DNA of 64,000 nt from Dissulfurispira thermophila (GTDB lineage Bacteria; Nitrospirota; Thermodesulfovibrionia; Thermodesulfovibrionales; Dissulfurispiraceae). The position numbers and the translations under genes were made by a program. Under the pieces are notes generated by a model that was not told where the DNA came from, searched no databases, and saw nothing but the letters and a program-made list of their open reading frames with translations. This document shows, piece by piece, positions 136-27,421 of the stretch. The DNA lies in contig NZ_AP022873.1 of NCBI RefSeq assembly GCF_014701235.1, positions 1,240,001 to 1,304,000 on the forward strand, written 5' to 3'. The stretch's first letter is position 1; the number at the start of each line of letters is the position of its first letter.

Positions 136-855
136 TTATGCCTTAGCTAATTCCTTGATAACTTCTGCAAGTCTGCATAAATCTTTTACCTTTATACAAT
201 CTATATTAGCAAAAATAGATTCATTATCATTAATTCTTGCTATAAAATTTACAAGATTATCTTTTGTAGCCTCATAATCACTCAAGGCATCCCCTACATA
301 AACAAAGGATTGAGGGCTGAGAGGTGAGGACTGAGTGGGAAGGATTGAGGGATAAGGGGAAAGGACTGAGGACTGAGGACTGAGGGATGAAGTATTAACA
401 GTAAGTATCTCACGGACAATGTCTACCTTTTTTTTAGGAGAACCGTAAATCCCTTTGAAATATCTCATCATATTTCTTCTTTTGATAATCTCCTCTATCT
501 CTTCCTGTGGAGTAGCAGAGGCAATATAACAATCATAAACAACGGAGTATGCATCCAAGAATTCTTTTGCACCTTTTACATATGGCGCATTCACCACTTC
601 ATCTACTACCAATTCAGAAAATCTCTTGCACAAGGCTTTGAAAATCTCATCTGTAAGTTCTCTCTCAAGTATCTCTTTATATATATATCTGAATTTCTCA
701 AACCTTGATACCCCTGCATTTTTGAGATGATAATCAACGATCTTTTCAACAATCTCTTTCCTTTCAGATTCAAATAATTTAGCAAAGGCTTTTGTTTTTA
801 TATCCACAGACTCTACTAACACACCATCAAAATCAAAAATAATAGCCTTAATCAT
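136..855 (-). CDS. HAD-superfamily hydrolase (probable sugar phosphatase) with a heptapeptide-repeat insert
   Basis: This is a HAD phosphatase of the beta-phosphoglucomutase/Gph type. Motif I is DFDGV at residues 8-12, motif II lies in IASATPQ near 113, motif III is a Lys near 142 and motif IV is GDALSD at 188-193. An alpha-helical cap fills the gap between motifs I and II. Residues about 153-183 are a low-complexity stretch of SPQSS-type heptapeptides, encoded by tandem copies of a 7-base repeat. It replaces the short segment that normally leads into the motif IV strand. The catalytic motifs stay in frame on both sides. In this operon it probably dephosphorylates a sugar or sugar-acid intermediate (inference). 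Confidence 0.85.
   Translation of the reverse strand: MIKAIIFDFDGVLVESVDIKTKAFAKLFESERKEIVEKIVDYHLKNAGVSRFEKFRYIYKEILERELTDEIFKALCKRFSELVVDEVVNAPYVKGAKEFLDAYSVVYDCYIASATPQEEIEEIIKRRNMMRYFKGIYGSPKKKVDIVREILTVNTSSLSPQSSVLSPYPSILPTQSSPLSPQSFVYVGDALSDYEATKDNLVNFIARINDNESIFANIDCIKVKDLCRLAEVIKELAKA
304..390. repeat. heptanucleotide tandem repeat inside the HAD gene
   Basis: Degenerate copies of GGACTGA follow each other at 7-base spacing, with three near-perfect copies around 364-384. On the coding (minus) strand the unit reads TCAGTCC. Similar arrays lie at 861-892, 2801-2832, 2866-2896, 3209-3242, 8244-8276 and 9472-9494. Confidence 0.85.
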
Positions 856-879
856 TGTTCAGTCCTCAATCCTTATCAC

Positions 880-1542
880 TCAGTCCTTTATAACCCCTAT
901 TACTGTGCATGGAGCACTGTCTATTGTCTCTACTCTTAAAGGCATAACCCAGACTTCTTTTATGCCCATTAAATTACTTGATAAGTTCATATCTTCAATA
1001 AGCAAGATTGGTTTATTCATGCCATTAGGATTAAGAAATGCCCTATGAGCCTCTCTGCCAATGTCTCTATTTTGAAATGGTGATATCGATATCCAATCAA
1101 TACCTATTGCCCTTATTTGAGGATAATTTTTCCTAAGAAAATAACCAACCTCAGGATGAATGCCGGGATTTTCTTTATAATATTGCTTGTTATCCCTAAG
1201 TTTATACCAACCCGAGCGTAAAATCAGAATGTCTGTACTACAATCTATTTGCTTTATCCATGTATTACAGTAAAGCAATTCTGATGGCTTTAGAGAAATC
1301 TCTACAACTTGAGGATTTTTAAAAAACCAAAATTCAGGAGAATAATCTGTAACATTTTTGCCATTTTCAAAAAAATGAGCAGGACAGTCTACATGTGTCC
1401 CCCAGTGATTTTGCATAGTAAAACTATATACATTGGCTAAATCACCATAAGAGATTGACTTGACAGCATCTATATTAAGCGATGTCATACCTCCATAAAC
1501 AGGTAGTTCATTAGTTAAAATGTAGGATAAATAGATATACAT
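880..1542 (-). CDS. cyclase family protein (kynurenine formamidase-like hydrolase)
   Basis: The protein matches the cyclase/KynB-like metal-dependent hydrolase family (PF04199). The hallmark motif HWGTHVDCPAHF lies about residues 45-57, followed by a GIDWISISPF segment and a C-terminal VWVMPLRVETIDSAPCTV block typical of the fold. I place the start at the second ATG (1542), because MYIYLSY fits the family N-terminus better than the four-residue-longer form starting at 1554. Members hydrolyse N-formyl amides or cyclic substrates. A formamide-directed role would suit a locus with two formyltransferases, but this is speculation. The substrate cannot be read from the sequence. Confidence 0.8.
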   Translation of the reverse strand: MYIYLSYILTNELPVYGGMTSLNIDAVKSISYGDLANVYSFTMQNHWGTHVDCPAHFFENGKNVTDYSPEFWFFKNPQVVEISLKPSELLYCNTWIKQIDCSTDILILRSGWYKLRDNKQYYKENPGIHPEVGYFLRKNYPQIRAIGIDWISISPFQNRDIGREAHRAFLNPNGMNKPILLIEDMNLSSNLMGIKEVWVMPLRVETIDSAPCTVIGVIKD

Positions 1543-1570
1543 TTTACTCCTCAACTCTCAGAGCCCTTTC

Positions 1571-2449
1571 CTATGGCTTGGGATTAATTTGCTTATAAAT
1601 GTCATAAATACAATCAAGTATCCCCTGCCCAAGGTCAAGATATGTTCTGCTGGTCAATCTTTTACCTACTCGTGGTGCAAAGGAATAAGGAGTAATTTCA
1701 TAATGCAAGCTATCTGTAGTTGGTATAAACTCTATTTCAATTTTATTATCAAGCATTTCCTTTATCATAATAAGAAGATCTTTAATGCGCATCTGTTGAT
1801 TACCTACAAGGATCACATGTTGATTTGCAAATTCATCTGCAAGGATTTCTACACTCCCTCTTGCTGCATCCATTACATGAATATAGTCTCTGAGTTCTTC
1901 ACCATCACCTTCTCTTGTTATTTTCCCCTCTATTAATGCTTGTTTCAGAATTTTGTGAATAAAGTTTCTCTCATCTGCCCTTGGCCCATAGAGTGAACCA
2001 TATCTTAAAATAGTATAATTAAGCCCAAAGACCTCATGATAATTTTCAATCAAAAGTTCACACGCCTGTTTAGTGCTTCTATAAAAAGACCCTGCCTTGC
2101 TGTAAACATAAAGTGAACTGGCAAAAACAAATCTCTTAATATTTTCCTTACGACAAGCTTCAAGAATAATTGAATTTCCAACAATATTATATTTAATGCT
2201 CTCTAAAGGCTTCTTGCTTGCCTCATCTATATCTGCTATACCCGCAAAGTTATAAACAATATCAGCATTTTTAACTGCTTCTTCCACACGGTCAACATCT
2301 AATATGTCGCCTACAATCATTTCCTGGGTATCCATCAGGTATGGAGATTTTTTCAAATCATAAATAGTAACATTATGACCAGCATTTGTAAGAACATCGG
2401 CAACATGACTGCCGAGAAAGCCGGAACCTCCGAAAATAATCACCTTCAT
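1571..2449 (-). CDS. NAD-dependent sugar-nucleotide epimerase/dehydratase
   Basis: This is an extended short-chain dehydrogenase of 292 residues. The nucleotide-binding GGSGFLGSH is at residues 7-15, and the Tyr-Lys pair is in YRSTK (Y123, K127) after the SS strand at 111-112. These are the features of UDP- or dTDP-sugar 4-epimerases and 4,6-dehydratases. It is shorter than classical GalE and ends with a family-typical LTSRTYLDLGQGI segment. One base separates its start from the stop of the upstream dehydrogenase, so the two are translationally coupled. The sugar substrate is unknown. Confidence 0.85.
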   Translation of the reverse strand: MKVIIFGGSGFLGSHVADVLTNAGHNVTIYDLKKSPYLMDTQEMIVGDILDVDRVEEAVKNADIVYNFAGIADIDEASKKPLESIKYNIVGNSIILEACRKENIKRFVFASSLYVYSKAGSFYRSTKQACELLIENYHEVFGLNYTILRYGSLYGPRADERNFIHKILKQALIEGKITREGDGEELRDYIHVMDAARGSVEILADEFANQHVILVGNQQMRIKDLLIMIKEMLDNKIEIEFIPTTDSLHYEITPYSFAPRVGKRLTSRTYLDLGQGILDCIYDIYKQINPKP

Positions 2450-2450
2450 C

Positions 2451-3491
2451 TTACATTACCCCCAATCCCTTAAGAAGATTTTCCGATGCTTGTAATTCCA
2501 TCTTTATCCTTGCCTCCTTTGCATATGAACCTATATGTGGAGTCAAGATAACATTATCCAACTCTTTCAATTGCCCGTTATATGGTTCCTGCTCGAAAAC
2601 ATCCAGAGCCGCACCAGATAAATGACCCTCTTTAAGTGCCTGATACAACGCACCTTCATCCACCACCTCGCCCCTTGATACATTCACCAGCCACGAGGCT
2701 TTTTTCATCATTCTGATTTCACGTTCTCCTATTATTTGCTCCTTGGTAGAAACATGGATTGATATAATATCACTTGTTTTTAAAAGTTCATCCAATGATG
2801 AGGACTGAGGACCGAGCAATGAGGACTGAGTCATTGTTTTAAGCAACTGATTTCTTTCTATTCCATCCTCAGTCCTTTCCTCCCCCTCGGTCCTTGTATC
2901 ATAATATTTTATCTCGCATCCAAATGGCTTTAACAACTCTGCCACCTTCTTGCCTATTCTGCCAAAGCCTATTATTCCAACTTTTTTTTCAGATAAAAGA
3001 TTGCCCATCAATTTCTCCCATTTGCCATTTCTAATAGAGGCATCCATCTGATTAACTTTTCTTAAGAGATTTAAGATTAGTCCGACAGTCAGTTCTGCCA
3101 CTGCAAATGTCGGTGCATCAGGAGTATTGAATACCTTTATTCCTAATTTCTCTGTAGCATCAATATCAATATTATCCATTCCTGTGCCGCAGCGAGAAAT
3201 AACCTTTAGGGAGGACTGAGGACTGAGTGCTGAGGACTGAGTTAAAATGCTTAAAACTTCAGCATCATAATTTTCAGTGCCTGCAATAATGCCATCAGCA
3301 CCTTTGCAAAATTCAATAATTTCGTCTTTTTTAAGTTTTCTGCCATAAGGGTTCAATATAATTTCATATTTATTCTTCTCTAAAAGTTCCAGAGGGGATT
3401 TGTCATATATGGCAAATGATGTTGTCATTATCGAGATTTTAGGAGTTTTAACTTTATCGCTCGATAAATTTAACATTTCTCTTTTTTTCAT
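2451..3491 (-). CDS. D-isomer specific 2-hydroxyacid dehydrogenase (phosphoglycerate dehydrogenase-like) with repeat inserts
   Basis: The NAD-binding Rossmann domain carries GFGRIGKKVAELL near residues 174-186. The catalytic Arg is in NVSRGEVVDE, the Glu follows in DVFEQEP, and the His is in LTPHIGS, all in the order known for SerA-like dehydrogenases. Two SPQSS-type inserts (around 3209-3242 and 2801-2832) and one insert in the opposite repeat orientation (2866-2896) interrupt surface loops without breaking the frame. ATG 3491 has a GGGAAGG ribosome-binding sequence. The frame overlaps the tail of a decayed nucleotidyltransferase gene, and family similarity really begins near residue 17, so a later start is possible. 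It probably oxidises or reduces a sugar-acid precursor (inference). Confidence 0.85.
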   Translation of the reverse strand: MKKREMLNLSSDKVKTPKISIMTTSFAIYDKSPLELLEKNKYEIILNPYGRKLKKDEIIEFCKGADGIIAGTENYDAEVLSILTQSSALSPQSSLKVISRCGTGMDNIDIDATEKLGIKVFNTPDAPTFAVAELTVGLILNLLRKVNQMDASIRNGKWEKLMGNLLSEKKVGIIGFGRIGKKVAELLKPFGCEIKYYDTRTEGEERTEDGIERNQLLKTMTQSSLLGPQSSSLDELLKTSDIISIHVSTKEQIIGEREIRMMKKASWLVNVSRGEVVDEGALYQALKEGHLSGAALDVFEQEPYNGQLKELDNVILTPHIGSYAKEARIKMELQASENLLKGLGVM

Positions 3492-3824
3492 AAATGACCT
3501 TCCCGCGTAGAATTCTTTCTTTCATTGCAGGTGTTGCATTCTCAAGAGGAATTATATTAACATCAAAATCATCTGCTTCCTGTAAAAGCTCTCCCGCTGC
3601 CTCGAAATACAGACTATCTGGAAGCCCCTCCACACACAGGTCAATACCTGAGTGAAATCCGAAGTGATGTTTATCTGCACATGTGCCTTTAAAAATCTGT
3701 GACGGCGTGAAGCTGCTATATTTAGAGATGTATCTTTTACTGTAACCATATACTATTACTAAAAAACCAAGCGGTGTTCGTCGTATTTTCCAAATGAGGT
3801 TGTTATTTCTGCAATCCTGTTCAT
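3454..3824 (-). pseudogene. decayed minimal nucleotidyltransferase (MNT-type) gene
   Basis: Read from about 3749 on the minus strand, one frame encodes GIDLCVEGLPDSLYFEAAGE, then DVNIIPLENATP and RGKVIYEK, and stops at 3454. This matches the C-terminal two thirds of MNT-family nucleotidyltransferases (compare IDLAVEGLPKDAYF in the intact gene near 31.1 kb). The N-terminal GS active-site loop is not recognisable, and the possible start at 3824 lies in another frame that stops after 21 codons. I read it as a frameshifted remnant of a toxin-antitoxin or similar module. Its last 38 bases overlap the start of the hydroxyacid dehydrogenase. Confidence 0.7.
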
Positions 3825-3850
3825 ATAATCTACTGCCTAAATCTTATTTA

Positions 3851-4672
3851 TTATCTCCATACTTTCCATGCATCAAATCTATGATCAAGGTCATCAGTTT
3901 TTTCCATATCAAGCCCTGACATAACCTCTCTGTCTGTTTTGTAATAAGTCCAGAATATATCAGTCTGATAGGTCTGCTTATATGTGTCTTTAATATACTC
4001 TACATTTTTAAAGTTCTTTTTCAGATATTCACTTACTTCTTCCCAGAAGTGCCTGCCTATATTGTCAGGTGATTCATTAATAGGTGGAAGATTGTGTTTT
4101 GCGCGTATCATATTTATATAGGCTGTATTATATGATTTATAAAAGTAGTTGCCATCATCTATGGCTACCACTGCCTCATTAGCAAGAATCTCTGTAACAC
4201 CTTTTAGCTCTGCCATCAGCACATCCAGTGTATGCTCGCTATCAAAGAAACAGGCATTAACCTTTTTACCCATCTCCTTAAGCATGCCTACACCTGCAAA
4301 TTCTGATATGCTACTGAAGGCAACATACTTCCAGTGATTGGTGATATTCTTATCCACAAAGTGCCTCATAAGTGTGTCATTTATTATAGACCTCAAATAG
4401 GCAAGCTTGCTTCCGTTTATATCCCATGTATAAAGCTCACCACCTGTCTTAAGTGCAAAATAACATAGCACTATTGTACTTGCTCCGCTGCCAGTTTCAA
4501 CAAGCACTGATTTGTCAAGTAGTTTCAGATCATCAAGCACATCATAAAGTGCAAGGTATTCTGAATCAGGAATTGAGTTACACCATCTGGGGAGCATCCT
4601 TTTGATTGCCAGTAAAAACCTCTTGGGATCTTTTTCTATATCTTCTCTTTTGCCAAAATAAAAATCATACAT
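3851..4672 (-). CDS. class I SAM-dependent methyltransferase
   Basis: The protein has a Rossmann-type SAM-binding motif (VLVETGSGASTIVL, about residues 56-69), an acidic strand end in LYTWDING and the later FFDSEHTLDVLM and VVAIDDGNYF segments. These resemble the Methyltransf_24/cephalosporin-hydroxylase-like group. It is 273 residues long and complete. Position inside the glycan operon suggests O- or N-methylation of a sugar or its lipid carrier. The acceptor is unknown. Confidence 0.7.
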   Translation of the reverse strand: MYDFYFGKREDIEKDPKRFLLAIKRMLPRWCNSIPDSEYLALYDVLDDLKLLDKSVLVETGSGASTIVLCYFALKTGGELYTWDINGSKLAYLRSIINDTLMRHFVDKNITNHWKYVAFSSISEFAGVGMLKEMGKKVNACFFDSEHTLDVLMAELKGVTEILANEAVVAIDDGNYFYKSYNTAYINMIRAKHNLPPINESPDNIGRHFWEEVSEYLKKNFKNVEYIKDTYKQTYQTDIFWTYYKTDREVMSGLDMEKTDDLDHRFDAWKVWR

Positions 4673-4707
4673 GTATCTTTCACCTCTTTGGAATTATTTG
4701 TCCCTTA

Positions 4708-5475
4708 CTAAAGCCAGTCTCCTCCGCTTACAGCAATTGTCTGCCCTGTGATATATGAAGAGTGATCTGAAAGCAAAAACAGTATTGCCCCGGCAATCTC
4801 CTCAGTTGTGCCTGGCCTTTTAAGTGGGATCAGTTCTGCTCTTTTCCTGAGCTGTTCATCAGTTCTTTTCATCTTTTCTGTATGGAATTTTGTTTTGATA
4901 AACCCGGGAGCTATCGCATTCACCAGTATATTGTATCTGGCACAATCCCTTGCAAGACCTTTGACCATACATTCAATACCTGCCTTAGCAACACCATAAG
5001 GCATAGATGTAGCACCTCCACCGTGTGTGGCAGACGCTGTGCTCATAAGTATTACTCGCCCGCCTTTTTCTTTCATATGACTTATTGCTCTTTGGGCAAG
5101 AAAAAATGGCATTATAAGATTAGAGTTTAAGTCATACCACCAGTGTTTCTCTTTCAGTTTTTCCCAGTGAATCGGCTCTTTTATATCCCCTGAAAGTTGA
5201 ACAAGACAGTCTATTCCGTTAGCCCATTCTACAAACTGATCCACAAGCTCGTAACACGCATTGGAGAAACTGAGGTTTTTTTGAAAAAATCTCACATTCT
5301 TGCTTTCTTTATATTTCCTAAGAGCAGATTTGTTGCTATAAAAATGAAACCCTATTATTGCATCAGCCTCAACCAACATTTTATTTAAAGAGGTTGCAAT
5401 ATCACTACTTGCGCCTACTATCAGAATCCTTTTGCCTTTTAAGTCCATATTAGGAATATTTTTAATCCTCTTCAA
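4708..5475 (-). CDS. SDR-family oxidoreductase (FabG-like)
   Basis: This is a classical short-chain dehydrogenase of 255 residues. The TGxxxGxG-like site is VGASSDIATSL (about 20-30), the Ser is in LMSTASATHGG, and the YxxxK pair is in PYGVAKAGIE. The tail SSYITGQTIAVSGGDWL is typical of FabG-like enzymes. It overlaps the upstream radical SAM gene by 14 bases, so the two are probably co-translated. In this setting it likely reduces or oxidises a sugar hydroxyl or keto group rather than serving fatty-acid synthesis (inference). Confidence 0.85.
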   Translation of the reverse strand: MKRIKNIPNMDLKGKRILIVGASSDIATSLNKMLVEADAIIGFHFYSNKSALRKYKESKNVRFFQKNLSFSNACYELVDQFVEWANGIDCLVQLSGDIKEPIHWEKLKEKHWWYDLNSNLIMPFFLAQRAISHMKEKGGRVILMSTASATHGGGATSMPYGVAKAGIECMVKGLARDCARYNILVNAIAPGFIKTKFHTEKMKRTDEQLRKRAELIPLKRPGTTEEIAGAILFLLSDHSSYITGQTIAVSGGDWL

Positions 5476-6985
5476 ATTCCTTTGAAAAATATGTCCTTAT
5501 AAACTCCTGTCTTAATCTCTCATACAACTCATTGCCCTCAGTGGTATCCTTTTCTGCCTGCTCAATCTCCTGCCATCTTGACACAGGGAACCTTACATAT
5601 AAAGAGAATGTCTTCATTATTCCCTTAATCTTTTCTTTTGGAAATTGAGGCATATTAAGCACAGGCTCTCCTGTAAGACAGCCTGTGAATGTGTCCTCTT
5701 CTATATATCCTAATTTTACTGACAGTTCTCGCAGCGGTGTGCCGTGAAATGGCGTAAATGCATAGCAATTCATGGTATCAACCTTGTCGGCAATTTTTCT
5801 ATTAAGTTTTATCGTATCCATTGCCAGTTCAGGAGTTTCTGTGGGAAATCCAACAATATTATTTACACTGACACCCGCCGGCAGACTGTGATGAGATATA
5901 ATATCAAGAGCGTTGACAATTACTTCATTTTTTACTCGCCTGTTTATGATTTCTCTCCTGAATTTCTCATTGCCATGCTCAATTCCCAAAGCCATCCTGT
6001 GAAGACCAACCTCTCTCAGCCTCTTAATTCTCTCCTCTGTAATTGTTTCAGGCCGTGTCTGGCACCAGAATGGAATCTTTATATCCTTATACATTTCAAT
6101 AAATGCATTAAACTCTTTATCAGTATAAGCAAAAAAAGTATCTGCCCAAAAATAAAAATACTCGACTTTATACTGAGAAATATAATACTTTAATTCTTCG
6201 CGCACTTTATCTATCGATTTTTTCCTTAAAAAAACACCGGCACCTTCTGATTTGTATAACCTGCTTTGCGCAGGTGAATTGCAATACGAACATTGGAAGG
6301 GGCAACCCCTGTGTGTCTCAACAGGCAACATTCTATATATCTGACCTGCCATTGGACGGTAAAATCTTGCATCCTCAAATATAGTGAAATCAGGAATCGG
6401 ATTTTTATTTATATCCGCAACTTTCCGCAGAGGATTTTTTATTATTTCACCACCCTTGTCTTTTACCCAAAGATTATTGATGTCATAATAATTCTTGCCG
6501 GCTCTGAGGCGCCTGCAAAGCTCAAGCAGAGCGTCCTCGCCCTCCCCAACACAGACAATATCTATTTCCTTGTTCCGCATAACCTTATGCGGAGCAAAGG
6601 TCGGAAAAACACCCCCGACAATAGTCAGGATGTTATACTTGTCAATATGTTTCAGTAGTTTCATGCCTAAAGGAAATATATCCTCGGTTGCAGACATGGC
6701 TATTAAGTCAGGCTGGAACGAGTTTACCGTTTTATCCAGATCTTCAAAAGGATCGGTAGTCTTTAAAGAAACATGTCTGGATATATCAAAAGGCCTGACA
6801 GACAGTTTTTTCTCTTTCTCTTTATCGGAATCAAAATCTTCACCAATTTTATAGTATGTCGTGTCAAATAAAGCTACTTTAAAACCATCGTCTTTGAGTA
6901 TCCTTGAGAACAGTGCAATTGCCGGAGGCAGCATATTCATCCCCCGCAGGTTTGGATATATAAAGAGAACATTAAAATCCCGCAT
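5462..6985 (-). CDS. cobalamin-binding-domain radical SAM protein
   Basis: The N-terminal half is a B12-binding-like Rossmann domain (MRDFNVLFIYPNLRG at the start, then VGGVFPTFAPH). The radical SAM core follows with the cluster motif CPFQCSYC (CxxxCxxC) in ETHRGCPFQCSYCN, and a TIM-barrel segment with MALGIEHGNEKFRR. I use the internal ATG at 6985 because family similarity starts there. The longer form begins at 7000. The overall plan is that of class B radical SAM methylases, which transfer methyl groups to unactivated carbon or phosphorus. It overlaps both neighbours by a few bases, so it is part of the operon. C-methylation of a glycan precursor is possible but not shown. Confidence 0.85.
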   Translation of the reverse strand: MRDFNVLFIYPNLRGMNMLPPAIALFSRILKDDGFKVALFDTTYYKIGEDFDSDKEKEKKLSVRPFDISRHVSLKTTDPFEDLDKTVNSFQPDLIAMSATEDIFPLGMKLLKHIDKYNILTIVGGVFPTFAPHKVMRNKEIDIVCVGEGEDALLELCRRLRAGKNYYDINNLWVKDKGGEIIKNPLRKVADINKNPIPDFTIFEDARFYRPMAGQIYRMLPVETHRGCPFQCSYCNSPAQSRLYKSEGAGVFLRKKSIDKVREELKYYISQYKVEYFYFWADTFFAYTDKEFNAFIEMYKDIKIPFWCQTRPETITEERIKRLREVGLHRMALGIEHGNEKFRREIINRRVKNEVIVNALDIISHHSLPAGVSVNNIVGFPTETPELAMDTIKLNRKIADKVDTMNCYAFTPFHGTPLRELSVKLGYIEEDTFTGCLTGEPVLNMPQFPKEKIKGIMKTFSLYVRFPVSRWQEIEQAEKDTTEGNELYERLRQEFIRTYFSKEFEED

Positions 6986-7811
6986 TACCCGTATCCCCAC
7001 TCAAAAAATATTTCTCGCGGACATATTTCACTGCATTTTTTACTACTTCTTTTGAATTGCCAAATCCCCTTCTCATCTCTATTGAAACATATCCATTGTA
7101 ATTTGAATTTATAAGAGCATTGCCAATAAGTGAATGGTCTATCCTGCCTGTATAGCCGGGCGGGGAGAGTTCAGGGTCTCCAACATGAAAGTGTTTTATA
7201 ATAGAACCATACCTCTGAAATACAGATTGGAAATTTTCTTTTAATTCACACATTGCCCTTGCATCAAGGTGAAGCCCGAAATTTGGATGCCCCACATCTT
7301 GAATTAATCTATATCCTTCATCTGATGTATTTATGAAATCACTCATTGAGTGTTCAAGAGGTTCTATACAAAATATAGTATCATATTTTTCTGCCTCAGC
7401 AGCAAGCTCTCTAAAGACCTCAATTGCAATCTGATAGCATTCGTTATAAGGCTTGTCCCCGACTTTTCTACTGCTTGGAGACCCATATATTAATGTTCTG
7501 ACTGAAAGCCTTCCTGCAAGCCCAATAAGCATCTTAAGATATCGTACAGTGTCCTGTCTTTTTTCATTATCACCGAAGATATATAAGTCTGGTCTTGTAA
7601 AGAGCAGTGCCTGAAATGCAGGGATTTGAAGGTTGTATTTCGATATGAGGTTTTTTAATTTTTCTACATCTTCATCTGCCGCATTGACTGGTTCTTTCCA
7701 GATACAACTCGGTGCGATCTCCACGCCATCACACCCTAAATCTTTTAAAAGCTTTAAATGGTCTTCCAGTTCAGCATTATCCCATGCAATATTTGATACG
7801 GAAAGCTTCAT
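6972..7811 (-). CDS. sugar phosphate isomerase/epimerase (xylose isomerase-like TIM barrel)
   Basis: The protein belongs to the AP_endonuc_2 TIM-barrel family (PF01261). The N-terminus MKLSVSNIAWDNAELEDHL leads into GVEIAPSCIW. Metal-ligand strands follow in order: FCIEPLEH, FGLHLDARAM, IKHFHVGDPELSPPG and GYVSIEMRRG. These supply the usual Glu, Asp, His and Glu ligands. It is 279 residues long and complete. Four bases overlap the CMP-sugar synthetase-like gene upstream. It probably isomerises a ketose or epimerises a sugar phosphate or inosose (family knowledge). The true substrate is not readable. Confidence 0.85.
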   Translation of the reverse strand: MKLSVSNIAWDNAELEDHLKLLKDLGCDGVEIAPSCIWKEPVNAADEDVEKLKNLISKYNLQIPAFQALLFTRPDLYIFGDNEKRQDTVRYLKMLIGLAGRLSVRTLIYGSPSSRKVGDKPYNECYQIAIEVFRELAAEAEKYDTIFCIEPLEHSMSDFINTSDEGYRLIQDVGHPNFGLHLDARAMCELKENFQSVFQRYGSIIKHFHVGDPELSPPGYTGRIDHSLIGNALINSNYNGYVSIEMRRGFGNSKEVVKNAVKYVREKYFLSGDTGNAGF

Positions 7812-8548
7812 TTAAGATTTTTCTTTAACCAATACTCCACCTGCGGGATTTGCCACTCATAATCCACATCCAATCCTCCCCATTGCTTCAGGGGATATAT
7901 CTTCTGTCCCATCCATTTCTGAGGCAACAACCCATCTTCAAGCCGTTCGAGACATCGTGGTCGCACGATGGATGCGCCCATATCGGCAAACCAGACATCT
8001 CCTTGAGAATCTCTATCACAACTCAGTTTTTTAGGATCGCCAAATGTTTCAAATGGTACAAATGGATGTAGGAGCCCGTCATAGCCAATTTTCCTTGCTC
8101 TTAGAGGACTCCACATATTATACCGTGAAACTGTCACTGCTGAATCATACTCAGGATTATCTCTTAGAACTTTTATCCCTTCGGAAATTGTTGCTGGCGT
8201 AATCGTCGGAGCATTACACATGAGCAGGACGACAAGTTCAATCTCTGTCCTCGGTCCTTGTTGCTCAATCCTCTCCTTCACTACCTTATACGCATGCACA
8301 AACACATGCTCTCCGAGCGCTTCATCAGTGCATAGCTCTGGAGGTCTTTTTATAATTTCTATATCATTTTCCTGTGCGAGTTTCATCAATCTCTCATCAT
8401 CGGTAGATATATATATTTTATCAATCTCAGGACAATCCTTTGCTGCTTTCATAGGATAATATGCAAGAGGCTTACCAAGAACCATATGCAGATTTTTGCC
8501 AGGAAAACCTTTGCTGCCCTTTCTGCCCATTAAAATTGCTACTATCAT
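7808..8548 (-). CDS. acylneuraminate cytidylyltransferase family protein (CMP-sugar synthetase-like)
   Basis: The N-terminus AILMGRKGSKGFPGKN corresponds to the CTP-binding loop of NeuA/KdsB-like enzymes, usually ARxGSKGxPxKN. Here GR replaces AR. Further family features are PLAYYPMKAA, YISTDDERL and the LLMCNAPT segment, in which family members usually have QPTSP. That suggests an altered substrate. Residues encoded near 8244-8276 (ERIEQQGPRTEIE) come from a degenerate heptanucleotide repeat. It is a second, divergent synthetase beside the one at 17.2 kb. It may activate an unusual acid or polyol with CMP (inference). Confidence 0.8.
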   Translation of the reverse strand: MIVAILMGRKGSKGFPGKNLHMVLGKPLAYYPMKAAKDCPEIDKIYISTDDERLMKLAQENDIEIIKRPPELCTDEALGEHVFVHAYKVVKERIEQQGPRTEIELVVLLMCNAPTITPATISEGIKVLRDNPEYDSAVTVSRYNMWSPLRARKIGYDGLLHPFVPFETFGDPKKLSCDRDSQGDVWFADMGASIVRPRCLERLEDGLLPQKWMGQKIYPLKQWGGLDVDYEWQIPQVEYWLKKNLK

Positions 8549-8565
8549 TACTTAATCATCACCTC

Positions 8566-9558
8566 TTAATCCTTAAATCCCAATTTAACTATTTCACTAT
8601 CCCTCAAATAACACCCATCGCATGCAGCAATCTCATGAGCCATGCCTTTTTTATGTGCATCTCTCACAGCATTTAACTGCTCTGAGTGCCATGCCTCTTT
8701 TATTGTGGTATCAAGAATATTGCCTAAATTAAGCAGCCCGTCATCATCATGATTACACGGCAGTATAGTACCATCCCACCATATAGCCATCCTTTGCCAT
8801 AGTTGAGGACATGCCCATGGATATTGAATGCCTTTTTTCTTATCCTTCATCACTTTGTAATCAAGATAAGCCACTTCGTCTACTTTATCAGCCCAAAATT
8901 TCTTATATTCTTCAAAACCATCTGCTATCTCAGGAAGCATCACTGTCTGAATCCTAAGTTTTGGATGCTCCACACCAAGCCTTTTCTTTAATTCCTGCAT
9001 CTTCTCTATATTTAAAAGCACAGTCTCATAAACTGCACCGTGTCTGTGTCTCTCATAAACCTCTTTTGTATGACCTTCAAATGATATAGATAGTCTGTCT
9101 AAACCAGCATCTATTAGCTTTTTAGCGATTTCTTCAGTCAAAAGCATTGCATTAGTATTAAAATAGACATCTATCAATCCTCTGTCTTTTGCATATTTTA
9201 CAAATTCATATATCTGCGGATGAAGCAAAGGCTCACCTCTGATATTGAATTTTACACCATATAGATTATTCTCAGCACCCTCATCAATAATCCTTTTTAA
9301 AATATCAAATGACATAAACCCTTTTTTAATCTTATTGCCTCTGAATGTCGTTGCACAAAAAGGACATTTTAGATTACATGCACTGGTAACTTCTACATCA
9401 ATAAAAAGAGGAAATCCACCAACATAAAAAGTCTCAGGCCACTCTTTCCACTTCTTTCTGTATTCTTTAAAGAGGACTGAGGACTGAGGACTAAGGATAT
9501 CCTCTCCTGCTATATGGTGAAAATTGGCATTTGGTTGGATAATCACATTATCTGACAT
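8566..9558 (-). CDS. radical SAM/SPASM domain protein
   Basis: The N-terminal region carries CNLKCPFC (CxxxCxxC) in EVTSACNLKCPFCATTFRG, followed by the barrel segments VKFNIRGEPLLHP and LDRLSISFEGH. The C-terminus is a SPASM-type region: CPQLW, then ILPCNHDDDG with GNILDTTIKEAW, then CDGC. These Cys would hold auxiliary clusters. About residues 18-30 hold an ILSPQSSVLF insert from the heptanucleotide repeat at 9472-9494. SPASM enzymes in sugar clusters include dehydrogenases, epimerases and dehydratases acting by hydrogen abstraction. The reaction here is unknown. Confidence 0.85.
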   Translation of the reverse strand: MSDNVIIQPNANFHHIAGEDILSPQSSVLFKEYRKKWKEWPETFYVGGFPLFIDVEVTSACNLKCPFCATTFRGNKIKKGFMSFDILKRIIDEGAENNLYGVKFNIRGEPLLHPQIYEFVKYAKDRGLIDVYFNTNAMLLTEEIAKKLIDAGLDRLSISFEGHTKEVYERHRHGAVYETVLLNIEKMQELKKRLGVEHPKLRIQTVMLPEIADGFEEYKKFWADKVDEVAYLDYKVMKDKKKGIQYPWACPQLWQRMAIWWDGTILPCNHDDDGLLNLGNILDTTIKEAWHSEQLNAVRDAHKKGMAHEIAACDGCYLRDSEIVKLGFKD

Positions 9559-11082
9559 CTAAAACCCCTTTAATTTATTAACAAAAGACTTAATATCCTC
9601 TTTTTTAAGTCCAAAAATAACAGGTTTATAATAAGCCATAGCTGCTACTGTTAGTGTATATAAAAATCCTGCTGATAGAAAACTTACTAAAATATTTTTA
9701 TTAATAGCCTGTAAATTATTTACAATAAAAACAGCAACGGTTGATAGTATTAAAAAACAACCAGTACTTGCTATCTGATGTCCCAAATATCTCCCAAAAG
9801 AAAGTTTAAGCAATCTTGCATTAAAATAAAGCTGCACATTGACCCCAATAAACTGCAGCACCACCATCTTAACTGCTAACCCTGTTGCACCCATGTTTAA
9901 TCCCATATTATCCGGCGGAGCAATTAAAAAGTATGTAACCGGTAGTCCGAGTAGCATAAATATAACTCCGATATTTCGATATAAGGCAGTTTGTCCTGTA
10001 GCATAAAACACGGAGCCGCTTAACTGTCCATATGTTTGATGGATTGGATAAAAAGCCATAATTGTTAAAACACCAGCAGATTCTTTAAACTTATCGCCTC
10101 CAAATATGTAAACTACTTTATCAGACTGCACTGCAATAAAACATGAGAAATATGCAGCAATTGAATATAACAAAGGGATATATCTCCTGAAAAGCCTTGC
10201 CATTTCAGATAAATCCTGTTGCCCATATGCTATAGAAAACTCCCTTATCAGCAAAGGCGTCATAGCACTGGTGAATAAAAAGCAGATAGCCCCTATCTGA
10301 TAAGAGAGGCTGTAAAAACCCTGTTGAATGCTTCCACTATAGACCTGTAATAACCACCTGTCAAAAATGCCTACCACCAGCCCTACTACAGCATAGCTGA
10401 AAAGTGGATGGCTGTATTGATAGAATTCCTTTAGATATCTCTTTATTTGTTCCCAAGACAATCTCCATACATCCTTTATAAGGTATCCGTTGTGCTGCAT
10501 GATCCAGATAAATGCCCCAGCCAGCACGAGTAAAATAATATAGTTATAGTAAAAAAAATTGATCAGATTTAACTGGTGAAAACCATAGAGCAAAAGGATA
10601 AGAATCAAACCCAATGCTTTCTGAAGTATCTTTGTTTTTTCTCCAGAAACCGTTAGTCCGTAACCATCTATCATTTGATTGAGAATCTGGCTAAACCACA
10701 TTAAAATACCCCAGATAGCTGCCATATAAATATATAGTACTTCTTGCTCTATCCATATGCTGGTGTTAATCGAGGTAACAACTGTAATAGCTACAAATCC
10801 CAATACCCCCGCAGAAACAATTCCCATAAAATAAAAATAAAAAGAAACAAGCCCAAGCTCTTTTGGTCTCTGGGAAAGCTTTGTATAAAAACCGATCGAG
10901 GTTCCCATGTCTAAAAAAGCAATAACCTGGTTAAAAAAATTGGTAAGAAAATTAAAGTCACCGTATGCCTTTGGACCGAGCCCTCTTGGAATAATTGCCT
11001 GAGTAGCCATGTTAATAACAAGACCAAATAAATTTGTTGAAAGTTTGTAAAAATACCTTTTTTTGAGGGAATCTTCCGGCAT
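9559..11082 (-). CDS. oligosaccharide flippase (Wzx-like polysaccharide transporter)
   Basis: The 507-residue protein is almost entirely hydrophobic helices of the MATE/MVF fold, with about 12-14 segments. The N-terminus KRYFYKLSTNLFGLVINMATQAIIPRGLGPKAYGDFNFLTNF is typical of polysaccharide_synt exporters, shown here only as its general pattern: an amphipathic start and a GPKAYGDF turn. It would flip lipid-linked glycan units across the inner membrane. One base separates its stop from the radical SAM gene downstream, and its start follows the LIC12162 gene by four bases. No Wzy polymerase is visible in the window. Confidence 0.88.
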   Translation of the reverse strand: MPEDSLKKRYFYKLSTNLFGLVINMATQAIIPRGLGPKAYGDFNFLTNFFNQVIAFLDMGTSIGFYTKLSQRPKELGLVSFYFYFMGIVSAGVLGFVAITVVTSINTSIWIEQEVLYIYMAAIWGILMWFSQILNQMIDGYGLTVSGEKTKILQKALGLILILLLYGFHQLNLINFFYYNYIILLVLAGAFIWIMQHNGYLIKDVWRLSWEQIKRYLKEFYQYSHPLFSYAVVGLVVGIFDRWLLQVYSGSIQQGFYSLSYQIGAICFLFTSAMTPLLIREFSIAYGQQDLSEMARLFRRYIPLLYSIAAYFSCFIAVQSDKVVYIFGGDKFKESAGVLTIMAFYPIHQTYGQLSGSVFYATGQTALYRNIGVIFMLLGLPVTYFLIAPPDNMGLNMGATGLAVKMVVLQFIGVNVQLYFNARLLKLSFGRYLGHQIASTGCFLILSTVAVFIVNNLQAINKNILVSFLSAGFLYTLTVAAMAYYKPVIFGLKKEDIKSFVNKLKGF

Positions 11083-11086
11083 AAGG

Positions 11087-12844
11087 TTATTTTAAAGTCT
11101 TTAAAAAATCCAGCCATTCTTTACGCCAATTTCTACTAGAACGGGCAAACTGATAGCAGAACTCATTTTTAGTCTCTTGCACCTCTTTTTGATTCCACCA
11201 GCCCTGAACATCATGCCAGATTTCGTTAACCTTACTGGCAGCATCTTCTGGTGTGTCAAATAAAATGCCCGCAGACCGTAATCTGTCAAAATATGGAAAT
11301 GTTTCATTGCAAACAACAAAATGTTCTGGATTCCAAAAAAGGATAGTAGGGGCATTCATTGCAAATGCTTCTAACATACTTGTTGAAAGATAATCAATTA
11401 CAACAAGGCGGGTTTTTTGCATCACTCTACTTAATTTTACCCGTTTTAATATCTGTCTGTTAGTTAATACTTGAGTAATAAACTCTATCTCATCTGTTCC
11501 ATAATCATGAACATAAGGTTTGTATTTTATATGCGACCGAATTTCTTCTGTTATTGAAGTTAAAAACTTTCTCTTATTATCCATATATTCTAATTGTTGC
11601 TCAGGTAACAATGCGGAATGAAAACGGTAATGATAAGCTGGATGCATTGTGCCAACAAAAACTAATTGTACCTTTTTCTCTCTATGTTTAGGTAATTTAC
11701 TTAGCATAGGAGATGGCAAAGAGTAATAATTTGAATTATATATATGTTTATACTTCCATCCCCATGTAATAAATCCATTAGATGTTTCATACTCTATTTT
11801 GCCTAATGGACTAGAAAACCACTGCCCATATCCCCCTCCATGTTGCGCAGAAATCCATTGCCCACCATATTCACAAATTTCAGCTATTCTATAAGCATCT
11901 TTTTCAGATTTATATATATCATTTCCTATCCAGATCTTTATTTTTGGCTTATAATATCTCTCTCTTACATAAATGGTAAGCAAAGCTTCCGGTATATGCT
12001 GTAAGAGTATTTTTTCGATTACTTTTTCAAAACTATTTTTTGCATTAAACTCGAATGTTTGATTAATTAGATATGAACGTTCACCTTTTAGGGTAATAAA
12101 ATTGTTATTTTCCTTGTTAAAAAGAAAAAAAGGATCGTATAAAAATTCAAGATAAAACTTATCAATTATTGAAATACCATAAACAGTGCCTAAATGTATA
12201 GATGAACTTAAATGGCTTGAAATACTTGAAATAGCTGATTTCGTAAAAGCTCTGATATTGCTGAATTTTTTGTTTATTCCAAGATTAGAAGTGTTTTTAA
12301 TCTGCTGGAAATTTTTTGACATATCAAGTAATTCTGGGATGAGAAAATCAAACTGCGCGAATTGAATTATTTCTGACATTAGCAGATTATTATAATAGTG
12401 TTCTTCTGTCACTTTTTTTATATAATCCCAAAAATCTTTTACAGAAAATGCTCTATTGCTCAAAACTTTTACAGTTAGCTTCTCTCTAATACCTTGCTGA
12501 AGATAGTTCAAACGCTGATAGCGGTCATAACAAACCCCTAACCAGTGCACTAACCATACAATAAAATATCTTTTCCAGAATTGGCTGCTATAATTAGTTT
12601 TATGAAAATTGTTCATTAAGTCTGATAATGGCGGGATTATTCTATCAATCAATGAATCAATATATAAAGATGCATCTAAAATATCCTGTGGCTTTTCCCA
12701 TGGAGATGGAGCAAGAGTAAACTTTTTCTGGTCCCAGAATTTATATTTATGATTATAAGCAAAACACCAGGGGCCGAGAAAAATAGCATTTTTTTCATCT
12801 TCAGGCCACAACTCTTTAATGCCAGTTAAGACAAGCTCTTTCAT
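11087..12844 (-). CDS. LIC12162-family putative transferase (O-antigen biosynthesis)
   Basis: The protein begins MKELVLTGIKELWPE and contains GPWCFAY, a WLVHWLGVCYDRY segment and a C-terminal RLVVIDYLSTSMLEAFAMN block. This matches my memory of the LIC12162 family named after a Leptospira O-antigen gene. The C-terminal part (SAQHGGGYGQ, then FNAPT-like pocket AMNAPTILFWNP) resembles a GT-B nucleotide-sugar site, so it is probably a glycosyltransferase. It is full length at 585 residues. The surrounding bases are clearly AT-rich. The IS256-family element lies directly upstream and may separate it from its former promoter. Confidence 0.7.
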   Translation of the reverse strand: MKELVLTGIKELWPEDEKNAIFLGPWCFAYNHKYKFWDQKKFTLAPSPWEKPQDILDASLYIDSLIDRIIPPLSDLMNNFHKTNYSSQFWKRYFIVWLVHWLGVCYDRYQRLNYLQQGIREKLTVKVLSNRAFSVKDFWDYIKKVTEEHYYNNLLMSEIIQFAQFDFLIPELLDMSKNFQQIKNTSNLGINKKFSNIRAFTKSAISSISSHLSSSIHLGTVYGISIIDKFYLEFLYDPFFLFNKENNNFITLKGERSYLINQTFEFNAKNSFEKVIEKILLQHIPEALLTIYVRERYYKPKIKIWIGNDIYKSEKDAYRIAEICEYGGQWISAQHGGGYGQWFSSPLGKIEYETSNGFITWGWKYKHIYNSNYYSLPSPMLSKLPKHREKKVQLVFVGTMHPAYHYRFHSALLPEQQLEYMDNKRKFLTSITEEIRSHIKYKPYVHDYGTDEIEFITQVLTNRQILKRVKLSRVMQKTRLVVIDYLSTSMLEAFAMNAPTILFWNPEHFVVCNETFPYFDRLRSAGILFDTPEDAASKVNEIWHDVQGWWNQKEVQETKNEFCYQFARSSRNWRKEWLDFLKTLK

Positions 12845-12897: not shown

Positions 12898-14293
12898 TTT
12901 TTAGTTGAAATTTTCTGAATGGCTCTCATTAATTTTTCCTCCTATGCTGCTACTTTTACAGTTTCACCTGTTTCCTCTAATGCCTCAATATTCCTGATGA
13001 CATCAGGAATTGAGGTATACCCATTAACCCTTTTGAATCTCTTTTCGCAATACAGTAATACAGAGGCAAGCCATCTCTGTTTCATCCTGCTATTACGATA
13101 CCTCTTAATATTACCCTCTGCATCCCTTACCATTGAAAACATGCTCTCTATTGGATTCGTTGAGCATAGCGTCTTCCTTAGTAATTCAGGGACTTTCAGC
13201 CGATGCAGCGTAAGTATTTCCTCTATCGCCTCTAAAAGTGAATCTGCTGCTGATTCATTGATTCCCCTGAGCCATTTCTCCATTTCAAGTAGCATCTCTT
13301 TTGCATCTTCATAGCTTTTCTGTTCCAATGCTGTTTTAAACCTCCGATGTGCCTCTTTTCTATATCTCTTGGCAAGATGCTTCTGTATGTTCTTGTCTTT
13401 ATGTATGGTGCAACGCTGATGTAGAAGTTTCTTGCCAAACTTGTCCCTTAATGCCTTGATTATTCCCTTGCCCCCATCTGTTACCCAAATTGTTCTCTTT
13501 GTTAGTTTTAATCCCCTCCTTTCTATGTCCGCAAGCAGTTCTTCGCATAGTTCATAGTTCTCTGTCGCCCCCTGCCAGGATCCCAATGGCATCTTCTTAC
13601 CTTCTGTGTCTATTCCTAATGCAATTATAAATGCCTCACCTGCTCGATGTATTGTGTCAAGATATATGGCAAAGGCTCTAAGATCAGACAACGACCTCTC
13701 CTTGAATTCTTTGAGTTGTTTCCCTGTTGCCTCTATAATATGCCTCGATACTGTACTCGGTGATACTCCAAATGCCTGCGCTGCCTCTATTACTATCTCA
13801 GCATACTTCTGACACGATATGCCCCTTAATACCTTTGCCAAAAGCTCTTCAGAAAATCCATCAGGTTCTTTCATTCTCTTATAACTCTTTAATTGTATCT
13901 CTCCCTGCCTGCCACGAAGTCGAGGTCTCTCTACACGCACCTTTTGATCTGCTATATATACTGAGCCAGGCTGACTTGCCCATTTATATATGTTAGGGCA
14001 AAATGGTTTATACTCAGGCCCTGCTGTCTCTTCCCTGTCTATATACATTATTGCCTCTGCTACCATCCTTCCCATCTCCATCATAAGTGAGTCAACTCCT
14101 TGCTTACCCCTTGCTAATATCCGATACATCTGCTCTACTACCCATTGCCTGCCGTATGCCTCCTCTATACCTCTGATTACTTTTTCCTCTGTCTTGTGCT
14201 ATCCTTCATATGTGGCTCCTTTCTTTAAAATGTTTTTTGCTTGCCGTGGATTATGCCACGGTAGGAGCCACTCTTTCAAGTTTCAACTAAAAA
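12898..14293 (-). mobile_element. IS256-family insertion sequence
   Basis: Imperfect terminal inverted repeats of about 28 bases bound the element. The left end reads TTTTTAGTTGAAA then TGGCTC, and the right end is its complement, GAGCCA then TTTCAACTAAAAA. The whole is about 1.4 kb with one transposase frame. A CCGTGG/CCACGG hairpin lies at 14244-14262 near the right end. No matching target duplication is visible in the bases directly outside. The element sits between two glycan genes in an AT-rich block and is itself less AT-rich. Confidence 0.75.
12942..14129 (-). CDS. IS256-family (mutator-type) transposase, N-terminus probably frameshifted
   Basis: Recognisable mutator-type signatures are AIYLDTIHRAGEAF (first catalytic Asp), WVTDGGKGI with the second Asp, the LHQRCTIHKDKNIQ block and STNPIESMFSMVRDAEGN with the catalytic Glu. 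The visible frame starts at ATG 14129. The same frame continues upstream for about 23 codons (ending GRQWVVEQ) to a TAG. A better ATG (MKD) near 14207 lies in the neighbouring frame, so one base seems to have been gained. The element may therefore be inactive or need frameshifting. Confidence 0.85.
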   Translation of the reverse strand: MYRILARGKQGVDSLMMEMGRMVAEAIMYIDREETAGPEYKPFCPNIYKWASQPGSVYIADQKVRVERPRLRGRQGEIQLKSYKRMKEPDGFSEELLAKVLRGISCQKYAEIVIEAAQAFGVSPSTVSRHIIEATGKQLKEFKERSLSDLRAFAIYLDTIHRAGEAFIIALGIDTEGKKMPLGSWQGATENYELCEELLADIERRGLKLTKRTIWVTDGGKGIIKALRDKFGKKLLHQRCTIHKDKNIQKHLAKRYRKEAHRRFKTALEQKSYEDAKEMLLEMEKWLRGINESAADSLLEAIEEILTLHRLKVPELLRKTLCSTNPIESMFSMVRDAEGNIKRYRNSRMKQRWLASVLLYCEKRFKRVNGYTSIPDVIRNIEALEETGETVKVAA

Positions 14294-14329: not shown

Positions 14330-15073
14330 TTACAAACTATATCCATCATCTACAATTATATTCTGTCCATTGATATATTTACTAATGTCACCGAGAAGGA
14401 AAATAACAGTCCCGATTATATCATCTTTATCTAACATACCTTTATTTAAACAAAGTGAATTATAATTTTTAATAAAATTTATAGGTTGTTTATCCATAAT
14501 CCCACCAGGACTAATACAATTTACTCTTATATTTTTTCCTTTTAAAAATTTAGCCATGTATCTTGTCAAATGTATAATCGCAGACTTAATAGCTGCATAT
14601 TCAACCGGCATTGTCATGGTTGTTTCTGCATAAATTTCAAAACTTGGAGCAATAACGCCATATATAGATGAGAAATTTATTATATTTCCAAAACCTTGCT
14701 TTAGAAAGAATTTTATAAATTGTTGAGATGTTAAAAAATATCCACCTAAATGAATGTTTAAATTTTCACAGAAATCCTCAAACTCCACCTCTAAAAAATT
14801 TCTCCCGTAGTTTTTATTTCTCGGGTATGCTGTATTTACCAAAGCATCAATTTTACCGTATTTTTTATAGACAATTTCAATGCAATCATTTATTGACTTT
14901 TTGGAAGTAATATCAACCATAATATAATCAATATCATTGTTAGAATCTTTTATTGGCTTTATATCAGCACTTATTGGTACTCCGCCTTCATGTAAAATTC
15001 CATTCACAATAGCTTTACCTAACAAACCTTCGCCACCAATAACTACAATAATTTTATCTTTTAAAAGCATCAC
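14330..15073 (-). CDS. SDR-family oxidoreductase, PtmA-like
   Basis: This is a short-chain dehydrogenase of 247 residues. The cofactor loop is VVIGGEGLLGKAIV (about 9-22), the Asp of the NAD site is in ADIKP, the NTAYP segment stands for NNAG, and the active site combines FSSIYG with YAAIK. The NINFSS and SPGGI elements fit the group that includes Campylobacter PtmA, a legionaminate-pathway dehydrogenase. The neighbouring CMP-synthetase and CBS-nucleotidyltransferase genes support that reading, but assignment below family level is inference. It overlaps the upstream hydrolase by 20 bases. Confidence 0.75.
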   Translation of the reverse strand: MMLLKDKIIVVIGGEGLLGKAIVNGILHEGGVPISADIKPIKDSNNDIDYIMVDITSKKSINDCIEIVYKKYGKIDALVNTAYPRNKNYGRNFLEVEFEDFCENLNIHLGGYFLTSQQFIKFFLKQGFGNIINFSSIYGVIAPSFEIYAETTMTMPVEYAAIKSAIIHLTRYMAKFLKGKNIRVNCISPGGIMDKQPINFIKNYNSLCLNKGMLDKDDIIGTVIFLLGDISKYINGQNIIVDDGYSL

Positions 15074-15878
15074 AAACTCCTCTTTTATAGAATTTATAGT
15101 AAAGTTCCCATCTTTTATCTTGATAAGTAGGAAAAGAATTCCTATAGTTTGAAAAAATCTCCTTTTCTATTTCATAGATTTCTATTTCTCCTTCATTAAT
15201 GATAGGTTTAGCAATTTGGCCTGACGGGTAAATCAACATAGAAGATTTTTTATATTCATTAGAATAATCTTTGCCAATTCTATTAACTCCTATCATAAAA
15301 ACTTGATTTTCTATAGCTCTACTTTTTAGCAATATTTTCCGATGTTCTAATCTTTTAGCTGGCCAGTTTGCAATATTAATTATTAACTCTGAATTTTGGC
15401 TTAAAATTGAATATATTTCAGGAAATCTCAAGTCATAGCAAATTGTTAAAGCAAGATTAAAATCTTCATAATTAGTAAATTTTAGCTCATGTCCACCTTT
15501 AAAATATTTATCTTCTCCAACATAAGAAAAGGGATGAATTTTATCATAAGTAAGTAAAACATCTCCCTTGTTATTTATAAAACAAGCTCTATTTTTATAT
15601 GAATTATTTTCCTTGACAGAAATACCAAAGATAATAGATTTATTGTAAGTTATACTGCATTCTATAAAAAACTTTAAACTATTGGAATTTTTCCATTCTT
15701 CACTCAAATTTGTATTCATTGTGTAACCTGTTAATGTCATTTCTGGGAAAATTGCCAAATCGTATTCATAATTTTTCGTATTTTTAAGTATGCCCAATAT
15801 CTTATTTTTATTTTTTTCTTTATCTTCAAATTCCTGATTCAGAGATACTAAGCAAACTCTTAATTTATTTTTTTCCAT
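15054..15878 (-). CDS. carbon-nitrogen hydrolase (nitrilase superfamily)
   Basis: The catalytic triad of the nitrilase fold is visible in order: Glu in LAIFPEMTLTGY (about residue 45), Lys in LLTYDKIHPF (about 114) and Cys in LALTICYDLRFPEIY (about 149). The 274-residue length is typical of omega-amidase/NitB-like enzymes that hydrolyse amides. In this operon it may deamidate a small acid or release an N-acyl group, but the substrate cannot be inferred. Codon use is strongly AT-rich, like that of its neighbours. Confidence 0.85.
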   Translation of the reverse strand: MEKNKLRVCLVSLNQEFEDKEKNKNKILGILKNTKNYEYDLAIFPEMTLTGYTMNTNLSEEWKNSNSLKFFIECSITYNKSIIFGISVKENNSYKNRACFINNKGDVLLTYDKIHPFSYVGEDKYFKGGHELKFTNYEDFNLALTICYDLRFPEIYSILSQNSELIINIANWPAKRLEHRKILLKSRAIENQVFMIGVNRIGKDYSNEYKKSSMLIYPSGQIAKPIINEGEIEIYEIEKEIFSNYRNSFPTYQDKRWELYYKFYKRGVCDAFKR

Positions 15879-15908
15879 ACGAAAAACCCCAATTCATACT
15901 ATTTAAAA

Positions 15909-18989: not shown

Positions 18990-18995
18990 TTTCTC

Positions 18996-20551: not shown

Positions 20552-20940
20552 TTTCCATCATCCTCTGTTATGTCTATATAATAGAATACTTTCTTTAAAT
20601 CATTTAATCTAACTTTTTTTAAAACATCTATAATCTTTTCAGATGCTTGTCCATCTCCATAAGGATTTTTTATATTTTCAAGAATTTCCTTAAATTCTCG
20701 TGAATATAACTTTTTTATTGCTTCTTTGATTGAATAATAATCCGGCTGACAATCTATTACGCTTTTTGCTTTTATTCTTCCTTTCTGTCTATCTCCTATG
20801 TCTATAGTTCCGATTTTAAATGAGGGGGCTTCTATTATTCCACTTGAAGAATTTCCAACTACCGCATCAACATATTGCATAGTGGATAAATAAAGGAGTT
20901 GTCCCATATTAGTAATGTCATGTTTAGAATTACAAACCAC
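20548..20940 (-). pseudogene. 3' remnant of a hydrolysing UDP-GlcNAc 2-epimerase (NeuC/LegG-like)
   Basis: The frame encodes only the C-terminal third of a NeuC/LegG-type epimerase: LLYLSTMQYVDAVVGNSSSG, then EAPSF, GDRQKGRIKA and the closing helices. Normal length is about 370-390 residues, and only 130 codons are open, from a GTG at 20940. The first ten residues do not resemble the family. The break lies at the junction with the Gfo/Idh gene, whose stop overlaps it. It cannot form the substrate pocket. If no other copy exists, the pathway lacks this step. Confidence 0.85.
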
Positions 20941-21820: not shown

Positions 21821-21822
21821 AA

Positions 21823-22884: not shown

Positions 22885-22897
22885 ATATATGCCTCCT

Positions 22898-25264: not shown

Positions 25265-25267
25265 TTG

Positions 25268-27419: not shown

Positions 27420-27421
27420 TT

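Follow-up and report, generated by a model that had tools for sequence, protein, structure and literature searches.

To our knowledge, the CMP-sugars described so far are 3-deoxy-2-ulosonic acids that derive from phosphoenolpyruvate (PEP) aldol reactions. In the Kdo8N pathway, a keto sugar acid is oxidised and then transaminated, with KdnA and KdnB working alongside a specialised KdsB. BtrS is the partner of BtrN in the butirosin pathway, and CMP activation is also found in phosphonate pathways (PhpF/FrbH, PhpK).

Here, we analysed a window of 64,000 nucleotides (bases 1240001-1304000 of the complete 2.37-Mb genome of Dissulfurispira thermophila; positions below are those of the window), which carries a cassette of ten genes. 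In an NCBIfam profile search none of the ten reached an equivalog cut-off, and literature searches for a matching pathway returned nothing fitting. The original prediction is upheld in large part. The ten genes likely form a genuine and previously undescribed CMP-sugar-acid cassette. Our main reading, to which we assign a probability of roughly 0.42 for the scheme as a whole, is that the cassette builds a CMP-activated 2-keto sugar acid and modifies it for use in the surface glycan.

Organisation of the locus

All ten open reading frames are present at 136-9558 on the minus strand, and Pfam supported every one of the gene classes that had been predicted to lie in one block. The cassette is transcribed from its high-coordinate end downwards, in the order SPA, CMP, TIM, B12, SDR and MT24, then SERA, EPI, CYC and HAD.

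136-855, minus strand: HAD, HAD-family phosphatase, core module (HAD_2 PF13419, E 2.5e-13)
880-1554, minus strand: CYC, cyclase/kynurenine-formamidase-like metal hydrolase, core module (Cyclase PF04199, E 1.6e-19)
1571-2449, minus strand: EPI, extended SDR of a distinct subfamily, core module (Epimerase PF01370)
2451-3491, minus strand: SERA, D-2-hydroxyacid dehydrogenase, core module (2-Hacid_dh PF02826, E 1e-54)
3492-3850, minus strand: scar between the two modules (three-frame translation and tblastn)
3851-4672, minus strand: MT24, SAM methyltransferase, tailoring (Methyltransf_24 PF13578, E 4.5e-8)
4708-5475, minus strand: SDR, classical short-chain dehydrogenase, probable keto reductase, tailoring (adh_short_C2 PF13561, E 6.1e-43)
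5462-7000, minus strand: B12, cobalamin-binding radical SAM enzyme, tailoring (PF04055, E 2.2e-25; B12-binding PF02310, E 4.1e-13)
6972-7811, minus strand: TIM, xylose-isomerase-like barrel, probable epimerase, tailoring (AP_endonuc_2 PF01261, E 3.2e-32)
7808-8548, minus strand: CMP, cytidylyltransferase of a distinct, highly conserved subfamily (CTP_transf_3 PF02348, E 1.5e-16)
8566-9558, minus strand: SPA, SPASM radical SAM enzyme, probable radical alcohol dehydrogenase (Radical_SAM PF04055 and SPASM PF13186)
9559-11082, minus strand: FLIP, Wzx-like flippase by visual inspection of the sequence (no Pfam match)
11087-12844, minus strand: LIC12162-family transferase (TIGR04331, 412.7 bits against a cut-off of 225)

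FLIP and the LIC12162-family transferase lie upstream of the cassette; past HAD, immediately outside the window, are two ORFs with a weak relationship to LIC13510 transferases. FLIP homologues adjoin CMP or SPA in many loci, and the LIC12162-family enzyme is a candidate transferase for the cassette product. In-frame tandem repeats of a heptamer (GAGGACT) occur within HAD, SERA and SPA (325-385, 2799-2830, 3211-3242 and 9472-9497), where they add seven-residue units (SVLSPQS) that are absent from most orthologues; further heptamer arrays are located at 39578, 43655, 51879 and 61508-61674.

A transposase-like ORF (12942-14129, by inspection) separates the cassette from a legionaminate-type operon at 14330-27440, which comprises LegB/C-like genes, NeuB, formyltransferases, PIG-L, a class III aminotransferase, a nitrilase-like gene and a CTP_transf_3 gene. 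The Epimerase_2 gene of this operon is maybe broken, since it encodes only 130 residues, which match the final third of the profile. A stretch of about 107 kb (G000:C1:1199987-1306643, which includes 5462-43485 of the window and extends beyond it) holds 9 of the 32 radical SAM genes in the genome.

Two modules joined at a scar

The block had been described as tightly packed, which is true inside each half (gaps of -29 to +35 bp), whereas the halves, a core at 136-3491 (HAD, CYC, EPI, SERA) and an activation and tailoring module at 3851-9558 (MT24, SDR, B12, TIM, CMP, SPA), are 359 bp apart. The intervening segment contains a truncated second SERA-like N-terminus (MNRIAEITTSFGKYDEHRL; 18 residues, 67% to the SERA of L130, tblastn E 7e-5) and a nucleotidyltransferase-like remnant. 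The first 17 residues of SERA are without counterpart in its homologues, where homology begins at about residue 18, and they overlap the end of the remnant in a different frame; SERA apparently acquired its present N-terminal end at the scar. Because of this content and the overlap with the start of SERA, the halves look like two modules joined by recombination. The gene set had been predicted to make a CMP-linked acid or polyol for the surface glycan; a CMP-linked acid is indeed the best reading, but the genes make up two modules with interchangeable components rather than a single fixed pathway.

Distribution and co-occurrence

The related locus L028 has the identical ten genes in identical order, with 49-77% protein identity and SERA directly after MT24. 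Orthologues of CMP at 60-82% identity were found in about 17 phyla, including archaea (methanogens and Methanoperedens), and were absent from the genus mates examined. Phylum labels on the CMP tree require 32 changes, consistent with horizontal transfer and possibly including binning errors in metagenome-assembled genomes (MAGs). A plasmid search with CMP and a phage search with EPI gave no match. Carriers in culture include Methanolobus psychrotolerans YSF-03, a species whose locus (L068) is a compact set of seven genes, and Planktothricoides sp. SR001.

Of 295 Nitrospirota genomes, 10 had CMP and 13 had EPI; of 237 Omnitrophota genomes, 15 had CMP and 27 had EPI. All but one of the genomes with CMP in each phylum also carried EPI (9/10 and 14/15), as did all nine genomes with CYC. 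The hypergeometric p-values for co-occurrence were 1e-10 to 1e-14, uncorrected for shared ancestry, in a sample that contains many MAGs and with thresholds set by eye; together with the gene order of L028, they place the grouping beyond chance. In L130 and L134 the whole core of four genes sits by itself on a different contig, apart from CMP, and the association is thus not only one of linkage. The genes do travel together, across phyla and into archaea, and the neighbourhood search that the original prediction had named as its refutation test came out in its favour. The ORFs in the related loci were called mechanically, and the family profiles were built from those same loci.

In genomes with EPI and no CMP, we found a pyruvate-type aldolase of the HpaI type that mostly adjoins a KdsB-like cytidylyltransferase, SERA, HAD and often CYC. 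Among the Omnitrophota genomes with EPI, 14 had CMP, 11 had HpaI, none had both and 2 had neither (Fisher p 6e-6); in Nitrospirota there was likewise no overlap at the thresholds used. An Acuticoccus plasmid carries a five-gene operon, HpaI-cytidylyltransferase-SERA-HAD-EPI, with a cytidylyltransferase of a third kind; a cultured carrier of the aldolase version is Acuticoccus sp. I52.16.1. Whatever its identity, the core product appears to end in CMP activation. SPA was considered as a functional stand-in for HpaI, with no evidence in favour. Two loci (L170, 2935-8051, and L174, 7823-12976) have HpaI-KdsB-SDR followed by an ORF of 663-670 residues and a glycyl-radical activase look-alike, by its look another radical route adjoining a CMP-type synthetase.

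A divergent cytidylyltransferase without a NeuB-type synthase

CMP is a PF02348 cytidylyltransferase by the curated Pfam score (61.3, cut-off 22.6) and falls under the equivalog cut-offs for PseF (70.6, cut-off 205.7) and for the best KdsB-type model (48.5, cut-off 234). Its predicted divergent CTP loop (GR for AR) and LLMCNAPT motif are real features and not decay: among 30 orthologues spread over many phyla, no variation was seen at G8-R9, at L108 and N112 within LLMCNAPT, at C177-G183 (CDRDSQG) or at F187-D189. Pfam detected no NeuB-type (PEP-dependent) synthase among the ten genes. NeuB was found somewhere in 28 of 30 carrier genomes, and within 10 kb of the cassette in only 14 of 80 loci; the two carriers with no match, one of which (L053) has a near-full set, may reflect gaps in MAGs.

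Proposed core chemistry

SERA has the Pfam domains and the conserved catalytic R/E/H of D-2-hydroxyacid dehydrogenases and is of the NAD type. Its closest relatives are phosphoglycerate dehydrogenase (PGDH) and glyoxylate reductase; it scored below the PGDH equivalog cut-off (224.4, NCBIfam cut-off 454) and departs from PGDH at the VRSxT and WxRKxFMG motifs of the latter. CMP-like and SERA domains are fused in three genomes (G284, G286 and L071), and in L085 and L102, where SERA is missing from the locus, there is an LDH2-type 2-hydroxyacid dehydrogenase unrelated to SERA. Both findings suggest that a 2-hydroxy acid is oxidised to a 2-keto acid in a step adjoining CMP activation. The LDH2 gene of L060 was not accepted as a replacement, since that genome also carries SERA.

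At the possible position of CYC in L085, a 6-phosphogluconolactonase equivalog (212.6, cut-off 124.45) overlaps the CMP gene; it is the sole copy found in that genome, in which a search for G6PD found none, and represents one locus in one MAG. A lactonase in L090 was not counted as a further case because it is on the opposite strand, and CYC genes in G172 and G152 were set aside as belonging to other contexts. The only Omnitrophota genome with CMP and no EPI (L126) has an operon with a GAPDH-like and a fumarylacetoacetase-like ORF. Taken together, the SERA fusions and replacements, the lactonase of L085 and the GAPDH-like ORF of L126 suggest a series from aldose via lactone and aldonate to 2-keto-aldonate, with HAD removing a phosphate. 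CYC keeps the HxGTHxDxPxHF motif in 21 homologues (its start is uncertain; codon 5 is the first ATG), and HAD, whose nearest solved structure is the TM_1254 phosphatase/beta-PGM, keeps DxD in 47.

The AF2 model of EPI (pLDDT 89.7) has the fold of an NDP-sugar 4-epimerase, the nearest structure being UDP-glucose 4-epimerase 4zrm (Z 34.5, rmsd 2.0, 280 aligned), and such a fold would disfavour a role as a C1 dehydrogenase. In 30 EPI sequences the active-site loop between SSxxVY and YxxxK is about 12 residues shorter than in NDP-sugar 4-epimerases and the Asn of RYxNxYGPR is Ser or Thr; judged from these sequences, EPI may differ from those enzymes in function.

Proposed tailoring chemistry

SPA has the CxxxCxxC motif, SPASM domain and auxiliary cysteines of SPASM radical SAM enzymes (invariant C61, C65, C68, C250, C268, C313 and C316), and was present in 59 of 79 related loci. 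Its AF2 model (pLDDT 93.1) is nearest to BtrN (4m7t; Z 22.7, rmsd 2.6, 229 aligned), which is also among its closest relatives by sequence. Given this likeness in fold, SPA probably makes a ketone for SDR to reduce or for a HisC-like aminotransferase to aminate. No locus had both of these genes, 28 having SDR, 30 having HisC and 21 neither (p 2e-8), and at least 14 switches between the two states were placed on the CMP tree. Most simply, a single ketone would be either reduced or aminated.

The best NCBIfam match of TIM was IolO, at 99 bits against a cut-off of 300, with TM_0416 as the nearest solved structure; it resembles keto-sugar epimerases. MT24 follows TIM-SDR in L059, L082 and L100 and is also present in L028. 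B12 combines the B12-binding and radical SAM domains of class B radical SAM methyltransferases and may methylate. The gene occurs in 28 of 79 related loci and is the one hint at the C-methylation raised in the original prediction.

Proposed pathway and alternatives

From the genes, their classes, their joint travel and the exclusivity of the modules, we infer the following reactions. EPI and CYC would convert an aldose or aldose phosphate to an aldonic acid, SERA would oxidise its C2 hydroxyl to a ketone, HAD would take the phosphate off and the CMP synthetase would join the keto acid to CMP. SPA would turn one hydroxyl into a ketone by radical chemistry, which SDR would reduce again with a net change of configuration, or at which HisC would install an amine in other loci; TIM would epimerise, and MT24 and B12 would attach methyl or other groups. 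We are most confident that a 2-keto acid is coupled to CMP with no NeuB-type synthase among the cassette genes, and least confident that EPI acts at C1 and about the identity of the sugar; the specific aldose-oxidation route is tentative, at somewhat under even odds. The hexulosonic acid of E. coli K3 was a lead from the literature, in passages that name no genes for it.

The main rival is a hydroxypyruvate route: 3-phosphoglycerate would be converted to hydroxypyruvate by SERA and HAD and then joined to an aldehyde by an aldolase or transketolase, with EPI setting the stereochemistry and CMP activation to follow. HpaI and a KdsB-like enzyme adjoin SERA, EPI and HAD in many Omnitrophota and two Nitrospirota loci, a tie to the core that aldose oxidation leaves unexplained, and the Acuticoccus operon, a split transketolase next to SERA-EPI in G152 and the relatives of SERA agree with it. 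Nevertheless, this route is rather unlikely, since the set has no aldolase or transketolase, CYC is left without a role, SERA is unlike PGDH at both motifs, and no genome with CMP in the two phyla had HpaI at the thresholds used.

The adjoining legionaminate-type operon and the near-universal NeuB of carrier genomes also speak against our scheme, and would suit a cassette that modifies an ordinary nonulosonate or Kdo made elsewhere, for example by that operon. We judge this unlikely: the operon carries its own CTP_transf_3, NeuB is seldom near the cassette, and two carriers had no NeuB match, MAG gaps aside. It is less likely still that the core makes one building block and CMP, SPA and SDR another, with only the glycan island in common. 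The scar could mark such a joint, and the core forms a separate operon in L130 and L134, at a distance from CMP, and occupies the opposite strand in L029 and L033, yet it has no nucleotidyltransferase of its own, is linked to either CMP or HpaI, and is tied to activation by the CMP-like/SERA fusions.

The aldose-oxidation reading extends to a doubtful proposal, a new class of CMP-sugars. Such a sugar would be a 2-ulosonic acid with its 3-OH retained, arising by stepwise aldose oxidation and not by a PEP or pyruvate aldol reaction, with a dedicated synthetase across bacteria and archaea and a radical SAM dehydrogenase that supplies either a reductase or an aminotransferase. If a synthetase family this widespread works without a PEP-dependent synthase and with exchangeable upstream and tailoring modules, microbial glycans would gain both a biosynthetic route and a set of monomers, and BtrN-like radical chemistry would have a place in the making of surface glycans. 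The mutually exclusive gene patterns open the individual steps to direct tests.

Comparison with known systems

As in CMP-nonulosonate (sialic, legionaminic and pseudaminic acid) systems, a PF02348 cytidylyltransferase activates an acid for surface glycans from within mobile islands. Unlike these, the cassette lacks a NeuB-type synthase, its CMP enzyme is below the PseF cut-off, and it adds a 2-hydroxyacid dehydrogenase, a hydrolase and radical SAM enzymes. A PF02348 enzyme, a B12 radical SAM enzyme and a SerA-like enzyme are shared with phosphonate CMP activation, and a phosphonate pathway was rejected as the PEP mutase motif was absent from 1150 ORFs of 80 loci. The Kdo8N pathway likewise oxidises a keto sugar acid before transaminating it and has its own synthetase, but uses an Fe-alcohol dehydrogenase and a DegT enzyme where the cassette has radical SAM and HisC-like enzymes, and the cassette extends to archaea. 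The BtrN/BtrS pair resembles it in a SPASM/Twitch radical SAM dehydrogenase, the nearest in fold, with an aminotransferase next to it in HisC-type loci, whereas the cassette has a surface glycan setting, an SDR in place of the aminotransferase in the window, and only about 20% identity.
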